A DNA stretch of 64,000 nt from Halorubrum trapanicum (lineage in GTDB: Archaea > Halobacteriota > Halobacteria > Halobacteriales > Haloferacaceae), in contig NZ_JAGGKE010000006.1 in assembly GCF_017873555.1 (NCBI RefSeq), positions 124,001 through 188,000 of the forward strand. Reading direction: 5' to 3'. The notes under the pieces were generated by a model. That model was not told where the DNA came from. It saw only the letters and a list, made by a program, of their open reading frames with translations, and searched no databases. The position numbers and the translations under genes were made by a program. Position 1 is the stretch's first letter; each line of letters begins with the position of its first letter. Positions 5,686 through 58,040 of this stretch are shown here, piece after piece.

Positions 5686-6035
5686 TTTATAAGCGGTCCG
5701 CGACGCGGCGGTGGCCGGTGCCAAAGTCCCGGCCGCTCGGCGATACGCGGGTCTCGTGGTGAACACCACCAAAGCCCCAGCCGGGAGGTGGGCGCACGCT
5801 CGCTGCGCGCTTCGGTCGCTCACTTCCTTCGCTCCCTCCAGTGCTTGCGTCGCCTGCGCCCACCTCCCGGCTGCCCCTTTGAGTCCCACCCCGCACCGCG
5901 CCGCACCGCACCTCACGCCTCCCCAGCCTCGTCAGTCGCCGTCGCTCCGCTCCGGCGACTGACTTCCCTCGCGGGCGGTTCGCGGCCGCCGGTGGCGGCC
6001 GCTCACCGGCGCGCCACCGCATCGTCTATTTATAA
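5686..6035 (+). repeat. Structured intergenic repeat, copy A
   Basis: About 350 bp bounded on both sides by TTTATAA (5686-5692 and 6029-6035). The order is a degenerate box CCAAAGTCCCGGCCG at 5721, the full box CCAAAGCCCCAGCCG at 5769, a perfect 18-bp inverted repeat (AGCCGGGAGGTGGGCGCA and its complement, the right arm ending at 5872), the box GGCTGCCCCTTTGAG from 5869, a conserved linker containing CTCACGCCTCCCCA, and a second hairpin with the 11-bp arms GTCAGTCGCCG (5931-5941) and CGGCGACTGAC (5953-5963). A third GC-rich hairpin follows near 5979-6000. Copies B and C share this plan. It fills the whole gap between halocyanin and mfnA. No protein-coding role is credible. Confidence 0.85.
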
Positions 6036-17058: not shown

Positions 17059-17501
17059 TTTATAAACGCTATCTGACAGCACAGCGGCGTGCACTTCCAA
17101 AGCCCCAGCCGCTCGGCCGTACGACGATAGATCTCGTAGATCTCCGATCGATACGAACACCGCCAAAGCCCCAGCCGCTCGGCCGTACGACAATAGATCT
17201 CGTAGATCTCCGATCGATACGAACACCGCCAAAGCCCCAGCCGCGAGGACTCGATGGGCTCGCTGCGGTCCTCGTCGCTCACTCCGTTCGCTCCTGCGGT
17301 CCTTGCGTCGCCCGTCTTCGTCCTCGCGGCTGCCCCTTTGAGTCCCGCCCAGCACAGCAACCGCAGCCTCACGCCTCCCCAGCCTCGTCAGTCGCCCTCG
17401 CTTCGCTTCGGGCGACTGACTCCCTCGCGCGTGCGACTCGCGGCCTCCGCTTCGCTCCGGCCGCTCGTCGGCACACGCCACCGCACCGCATCTGTTTATA
17501 A
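17059..17501 (+). repeat. Structured intergenic repeat, copy B, with tandem 66-bp units
   Basis: About 443 bp between TTTATAA boxes at 17059-17065 and 17495-17501; a further TTATAA is at 17529. The box CCAAAGCCCCAGCCG occurs three times, at 17097, 17163 and 17229. The first two head 66-bp tandem units that differ at a single base (ACGACGATAG versus ACGACAATAG). The third begins the hairpin whose arms are AGCCGCGAGGA and TCCTCGCGGCT, followed by GGCTGCCCCTTTGAG near 17329 and the linker CTCACGCCTCCCCA. Hairpin 2 has arms GTCAGTCGCCC (17387-17397) and GGGCGACTGAC (17410-17420). It lies between the rhomboid gene and aroD. Confidence 0.85.
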
Positions 17502-44189: not shown

Positions 44190-44426
44190 TTAAGAACCCC
44201 GGCGACGACGGCTCATACGGGAACAGCACAGCTGCAGATCCGACGTGCTGGGGGTCTTTTCGCCCTCGGCTTGGGAATGTAGCAGTGCGCCGACGCCTCC
44301 GGCGTCGCGGTCGGGCGGTCCGCTCGCGCGGACCGTCCGCTCGGATCGCTCGGTCCGCGAGCGGTCCGTAGCCGCGCCGCGCGGAGTCGCGGTCACGTTG
44401 CGGTTGTGCCGTTCCAATTTCAGACA
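44190..44426 (+). promoter_or_regulatory. Promoter and structured leader of the rps15 operon
   Basis: A TATA-like CTTAAGA at about 44190 predicts a start near 44220 and a leader of about 200 nt, long for haloarchaea. Three hairpins follow one another: CGACGCC-TCC-GGCGTCG (44291-44307), CGGTCCG-N6-CGGACCG (44316-44335), and an 11-bp stem with one G-U pair (44342-44352 with 44358-44368). Another AT-rich patch just before ATG 44427 (TTCCAATTTC) could allow a second start. The leader could mediate control by a ribosomal protein. The stretch 44038-44190 holds only the nhaC promoter region. Confidence 0.5.
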
Positions 44427-57740: not shown

Positions 57741-58040
57741 TTTACGAGTAAAACCACGTGGCGCGTGCCTTCGAGCGCCCTCAGGCGCGAGAAGCACGCG
57801 CGAGGGAGTCGGTCGCCCGAGCGAAGCGACGGGCGACCGACGAGGTTGGGGAGGCGTGAGGTGCTGTGCGGATGCGGTCGGGCGGGACTCAAAGGGGCAG
57901 CCGGGAGGACGAAGCACGGCGACGCAAGCACCGGAGCGAAGGAGCGGTAGCGACTGAGCGAGGAGCGCAGCGAGCCGCGCGAGTCCTCGCGGCTGGGGCT
58001 TTGGAAGTGTTCACGGTGGTAGCAACAGTTTTCGTACGAA
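57741..58040 (-). repeat. Structured intergenic repeat, copy C (reversed)
   Basis: About 300 bp, read on the minus strand. The box CCAAAGCCCCAGCCG runs down from 58004, then the hairpin arms AGCCGCGAGGA and TCCTCCCGGCT (one mismatch), GGCTGCCCCTTTGAG (57902-57888), and the linker CTCACGCCTCCCCA. Hairpin 2 has the 12-bp arms GTCGGTCGCCCG and CGGGCGACCGAC (57830-57841 and 57808-57819). Hairpin 3 (GCGCGTGC..GCACGCGC) is near 57755-57805. The flanking TTTATAA boxes of copies A and B are replaced by TTTACGAGTAAAA at 57741. It lies between mutL and the sugar-importer ATPase. Confidence 0.85.

Follow-up and report, generated by a model that had tools for sequence, protein, structure and literature searches.

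A class-wide non-coding repeat of the Halobacteria: invariant G-triplets at the base of a freely variable stem

The Halobacteria carry a non-coding, high-copy interspersed repeat that occurs across the class, in which an invariant base of G-triplets supports a hairpin whose stem is free to vary. The repeat is apparently undescribed; the open-access literature gave nothing relevant on the sequence itself. We present it here from copies A, B and C in a 64-kb stretch of DNA of Halorubrum trapanicum (64,000 nucleotides, hereafter the window), which is included in a 3.08-Mb draft genome (G000), and follow it from there through the genus, the class and beyond.

Anatomy of the element in the window and the genome

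Copy A is intergenic and has a halocyanin-like and an mfnA-like gene as neighbours (gene names here and below come from reading the translations). The element runs on the plus strand, the minus strand being the one proposed to fold, and its first hairpin, P1, occupies positions 5770-5881. Upstream stands a degenerate tandem unit of 48 nt with a decayed left box (5722-5769, plus strand). Read on the minus strand, P1 holds a 3x3 internal loop with its left side at 5775-5777 and its right side at 5874-5876, each CCC on the plus strand and GGG on the minus. Outside the hairpin lie the conserved leader GGGYGGG (5885-5891, CCCACCC on the plus strand), which supplies a third and a fourth G-triplet, and the invariant joiner CGAGGCTGGGGAGGCGTGAGG (5911-5931, CCTCACGCCTCCCCAGCCTCG on the plus strand). 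Two further minus-strand hairpins complete the copy: P2 (5931-5963), whose stem is swapped wholesale among copies with pairing always kept, and P3 (5970-6016), which shows strong covariation in the family and a sharp right end, ACCGC. Copy B, flanked by a rhomboid-like gene and aroD, begins with two near-identical 66-nt tandem units (17098-17229, plus strand); its P1 lies at 17230-17340, with the element on the plus and the G-rich strand on the minus, and the element runs on to about 17486. Copy C has mutL downstream and is inverted, the element lying on the minus strand and the G-rich strand being the plus, with P1 at 57890-58003 and the remainder extending to about 57757.

A preliminary description had placed a repeat hairpin at 5769-5887, and this hairpin is real. 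The exact left box, CAAAGCCCCAGCCG, has 91 matches in the genome and its reversed control 2, the 256-nt element of copy A folds with z-scores of -6.4 and -6.9 on the two strands, and copies A, B and C all carry it. One common anatomy was found in the 67 copies assembled from the genome: at least one upstream unit, mostly of 57 nt and repeating the left box, then P1, GAGTCCCRCCC and the joiner, followed by P2, CTCCCTCGC, P3 and the sharp end ACCGC. Past this end, many copies have a TATA-like sequence at a variable distance. The element is about 300 nt long and keeps no open reading frame, and the variation of its stems and length ignores frame. P1 and P3, on opposite sides of the element, are unrelated hairpins, and there are no terminal inverted repeats.

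Individual copies depart from this plan in several ways. P1 is absent from some that have joiner, P2 and P3 (L214, L266, L267, L277, L278, L303), and some of them have another hairpin instead. The apical part of P1 is inverted in others (L002, L022, L030, L034, L056, L057), as if arm-to-arm recombination had flipped it. Long C and G runs within or after P2 (L030 from 1700, L045, L065, L073) resemble assembly or sequencing error at hard hairpins, and several contigs terminate inside elements. Elsewhere in the window, positions 44217-44288 (plus strand) hold an S15-Halobacteria ribosomal protein leader (RF03143, 68.7 bits).

The tandem units upstream of P1 have lengths that are multiples of three (48, 51, 54, 57, 63, 66, 69 and 72 nt) in 76 of 77 distinct units, and the few arrays of other genera have units of 45, 48, 51 and 54 nt. 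A coding origin was rejected, with neither a stop-free frame nor a three-base substitution pattern in the units. In the 57-nt units a TATA-like box is strongly conserved 31-38 nt before the left box and would place a start at GAACACC; the box is missing from the 48-54-nt units and likewise from the related units of other genera. As the promoter of an RNA gene this left TATA was also rejected, since it is not universal in the units and wobble evidence favours the other strand.

The internal loop and the G-rich strand

Conservation of the loop was assessed in copies found through orthologous position, the joiner or large fetched stretches, and not through the loop itself; in 60 of them the complementary stem above it fixed the position of both arms. 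Among copies located in this way, without using P1, GCCCC is intact on both sides in 51 of 60 (left side 55/60, right side 57/64). The pairs below the loop are CAAA/TTTG in 52 copies and, with compensation, CGAA/TTCG in 5, and above it AGCCG/CGGCT alternates with AGTCG/CGACT, rarer forms being compensated as well. This is the pattern that had been predicted for further genome copies, a constant GCCCC between covarying flanks, and it confirms the pairing of CAAA with TTTG and of AGCCG with CGGCT; random sequence at the GCCCC positions was not seen in the 60-copy set. The helices are kept through compensatory changes, as in a structured RNA, and gene conversion or template switching between the arms is a possible alternative cause of such changes.

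Two points of the preliminary description have to be amended. It held that the GCCCC blocks cannot pair with each other, and this is wrong: they do pair at their ends, where the opening G of either block meets the closing C of its partner. By the pair counts and both minimum-energy folds, G5774 pairs with C5877 and C5778 with G5873, leaving a 3x3 loop of CCC against CCC (5775-5777 and 5874-5876), or GGG against GGG on the minus strand. It also missed two further conserved G/C triplets just outside the right box, CCCRCCC at 5885-5891. Its notion of paired recognition sites in direct orientation fits in part; tandem copies of the left box exist that have no hairpin partner, and the box is therefore a linear sequence as well. 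That the loop is a binding element holds up insofar as a selected recognition feature is well supported, because the loop is invariant in several families of Halobacteria while the stems change completely; as its partner, the G-tracts themselves would look no different in the sequence from a protein or a ligand.

The same description called the loop C-rich, which is true of the plus strand and may nevertheless name the wrong strand. On the plus strand of Halorubrum stems, 63 A.C mismatches stand against 20 G.T mismatches, and each such A.C corresponds to G.U on the minus strand. The alignment of the P3-P2 part, read on the minus strand, has frequent G.U and rare A.C, with G.U far exceeding A.C in P3 and the joiner, and that strand is also rich in purines in the conserved unpaired joiners. 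On account of the wobble bias, the G.U excess and the purine-rich joiners, the element is read here on the minus, G-rich strand. The bias in Halorubrum leans on one P1 position and on related copies that are not independent, it is absent from class-wide stems (G.T 5, A.C 4), and mutational asymmetry could be its source. We infer, with moderate support, that the G-rich sequence is the active one and works as a folded single strand, either RNA or single-stranded DNA.

On this strand the invariant base reads GGGYGGGA(C/A)U-SAAAG-GGG-stem-GGG-CUUUS. Every G of the leader is conserved at 93-100%, against 48-84% at the preceding positions, and the leader is kept in most genomic matches. Since leader and loop triplets are both conserved, the conserved unpaired part of P1 amounts to four G-triplets. 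The string GGGYGGG...GGG(G)...GGG(G) has what defines a G-quadruplex sequence, four runs of three or more G on the same strand, and its order is the one that a three-tetrad quadruplex would need, in which the last, third loop would be the entire stem-loop. Judged from its sequence, the G-rich base is possibly a quadruplex-duplex junction. Quadruplex-duplex hybrid structures are known, and four G-triplets around a stem-loop are what the element has in common with them. Quadruplexes are reported in the DNA and RNA of Haloferax volcanii cells (PMC12873603). A conserved four-tract arrangement with a long hairpin as one loop was not found in the open-access passages of the quadruplex literature.

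Distribution, copy number and spread

Within Halorubrum, the conserved joiner is present in 53 of the 53 genomes searched, with 7 to 176 joiners in each. In named sequence records the right box occurs in Halorubrum and in one uncultured archaeon, and a distribution restricted to the genus was considered. This proved wrong, as the earlier pattern held the genus-specific closing pair TTTG; a related pattern is class-wide. A covariance model, built on the P3-P2-joiner part and searched against a class-wide genome sample, matched 35 of 35 Halorubrum genomes and gave weak matches in 8 genomes of seven other genera, several of which are real relatives because P1 follows. The 5' arm GGGAMTSAAAGGGGC was found in 193 of 292 genomes of Halobacteria, representing 53 of 77 genera, and its control was almost devoid of matches. 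A stricter motif that adds a GGGY leader was matched by 46 of 81 Halobacteria, whereas the 312 genomes searched from the rest of the phylum gave no match. When 37 hairpins of other genera were placed by 12-nt stem complementarity alone, 35 of them had the second GGG and 33 had CTTTC as the closing arm, on 30 different stems. Among the relatives picked up by the covariance model, the base reads GAAAG-GGG-CCGCCG.../...CGGCGG-GGG-CUUUC in G274 and GAAAG-GGG-CGGCAG.../...CTGCCG-GGG-CUUUC in g78; both have the loop unchanged, with the neighbouring helices on its two sides exchanged with compensation.

IMG/VR and phage records contain no true copy of the element, the 31 matches in viral contigs being chance matches that lack leader and hairpin, and a viral origin was rejected. 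A similar stretch occurs in only 8 of 72,556 plasmids. Against Rfam, no match to the element reached the gathering score and matches were at chance level. In several genera (L420, L437, L441 and others) hairpin pairs stand back to back, inverted, with their G-leaders facing across a short gap. One locus (L399, in G101) has a short tandem repeat, CCGCGGTCAGGACACCGAACT, after the P3-P2 part, where P1 would be.

Across the class the number of copies per genome ranges from 0 to about 150 and is patchy inside genera, from 0 to 75 in g17 and from 0 to 61 in g51. Elements are often common to orthologous intergenic sites, with conserved orientation. At the aroD locus (17230-17486 in the window, compared with G030 and others) the constant segments are kept, and the stems of P1, P2 and P3 are entirely different. 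Orthologous copies with wholly different stems point to gene conversion or template switching besides descent. Sites that lack the element are short intergenic regions or contain other sequence, and the difference from occupied sites extends across the entire intergenic region; the empty-site comparisons showed presence or absence and gave no readable insertion boundary or target duplication. A clean recent insertion was found neither between three species nor between G016 and G022. Over the core, no two copies of the window's genome are more than about 91-94% alike. Divergent intergenic regions rarely host copies, making up 4 of 49 sites at which a base-composition method had called the genes on both sides. 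On these data, moderate support can be given to the view that the element amplifies.

Relation to known systems and proposed explanation

Palindrome-associated transposable elements (PATEs) of Haloquadratum walsbyi have palindromes that resemble the IS605 type, no target duplication and strain-specific insertions (PMC3119063), and in a Halorubrum virus-host system a PATE is strongly expressed on the reverse strand (PMC10544981). Compared with PATEs by description, our element is likewise short, non-coding and present in many copies, too short to encode a transposase, has palindromes near termini that are not inverted repeats, and is hit by small hairpin repeats. Many copies have a small insert resembling the SMR-A repeats of Haloquadratum, in P1 apical loops or in joiners and the P2/P3 region, and an insert of this kind also lies in an IS605 hairpin. 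Carriers of this double-hairpin insert have it in the P1 loop (L006, L013, L035, L058, L064, L066, L070, L077), after P2 (L008, L032, L061, L066) or in an IS605 end hairpin (L292). The element differs in its conserved G-tract base, its freely replaceable stem and its tandem units at one end, and also in that its ends match no IS605 element examined: they were found at 0 of 33 Halorubrum Y1 loci, some resemblance being confined to the internal-loop hairpin. We therefore say that the element works like a PATE, and do not call it one, because the likeness to IS605 ends failed and Y1 is unlinked; by look and behaviour, PATEs are the closest known class.

Other classes are more distant. A MITE would have inverted terminal repeats, which the ends are not, and target-site duplication, which was not seen in the comparisons made. 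REP/RAYT systems (PMC3733652) share dispersed, high-copy intergenic palindromes; our element is longer and unlinked to the number of Y1 transposases, and the GTAG or CGTC tag is absent from the hairpin foot in the 60-copy set. The class I intergenic repeats of the Halorubrum virus HF2 (PMC8707807) are similar in their 56-58 bp and TATA box. They are defined by TCTTTAAGTC-type motifs, whereas our units have TTATAAAT and the left box, and the viruses lack the element; with a different sequence, these promoter repeats were rejected as its identity.

The explanation that we prefer, tentatively and with a chance somewhat short of even, is that of a PATE-like non-coding repeat recognised through a G-rich folded base, possibly a quadruplex, and spread by an enzyme. 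P1 would be the near-terminal palindrome of a non-coding, high-copy element, and the part recognised would be its base and not its stem, which could be any sequence that pairs. The four G-triplets would probably assemble into a three-tetrad G-quadruplex that stacks on the stem and is helped by the high potassium content of haloarchaeal cells, and the folded base would serve as the handle for the enzyme that spreads and maintains the element, like the near-terminal palindromes of PATEs. Against this reading count the size of the third quadruplex loop, the copies devoid of P1, the lack of wobble bias in class-wide stems, and the failure to find a clean target site, a recent insertion or an element-specific transposase. 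A bolder version, in which a class-wide repeat is recognised via a hairpin-nested G-quadruplex as a structure-only signal adapted to the potassium-rich cytoplasm, with mobility by a new enzyme or a host RNA/DNA switch, appears possible and rather doubtful.

Three other explanations have to be weighed against the preferred one. A canonical IS605-type PATE, a remnant on whose hairpin a Y1 (HUH) transposase would act in trans when the DNA is single-stranded, would suit a short, non-coding element with hairpins near ends that are not inverted, the more so as IS605 elements of this genome have internal-loop hairpins near their own ends and inserts of one double-hairpin kind are shared by an IS605 hairpin and the apical loops of P1, as SMR-A does in Haloquadratum (PMC3119063) with its palindromes. 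We consider it improbable, given that 11 of 53 Halorubrum genomes with no Y1_Tnp match still carry 11-117 copies, that Y1 number and copy number are uncorrelated (rho 0.002), and that element ends stand at none of the 33 Y1 loci; IS605 as a direct partner was rejected, the Y1 loci neither carrying element ends nor tracking copy number. Quite as improbable is a site that acts as double-stranded DNA, either REP-like or bound by a nucleoid protein, whose C-rich strand would be transcribed from the TATA of the 57-nt units. That box and the tandem left box with no hairpin partner speak for it, but the box is missing from the 48-54-nt units and those of other genera, and covariation on both sides of the loop requires a folded strand.

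Less improbable than the two readings just discussed, though still unlikely, is a structured non-coding RNA that the host would make from the G-rich strand and use in regulation or, within 3' untranslated regions, as the site of a ligand or protein; gene conversion and duplication, in place of transposition, would have multiplied it. This reading would account for the covariation in P3 and P1 with minus-strand G.U wobble, the purine-rich joiners, the persistence of copies at orthologous sites and the scarcity of sites between divergent genes (4/49), and a Halobacterium PATE is reported as a non-coding RNA in a work cited in PMC10544981. However, copy numbers range between 0 and about 150 over the class, there is no fixed gene partner, no promoter stands at a fixed distance on the G-rich strand, and Rfam gives no match.

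Whichever agent recognises the base, the repeat would unite unexplained multicopy hairpins of many haloarchaeal genomes as a single ancient family, whose precise and testable signature can be seen in two thirds of the genomes of Halobacteria that were searched. If its G-triplets form a quadruplex, thousands of copies of a natural quadruplex would be under purifying selection that can be measured, at molar intracellular K+. The spread of PATE-like repeats that have no transposase of their own would become directly testable.
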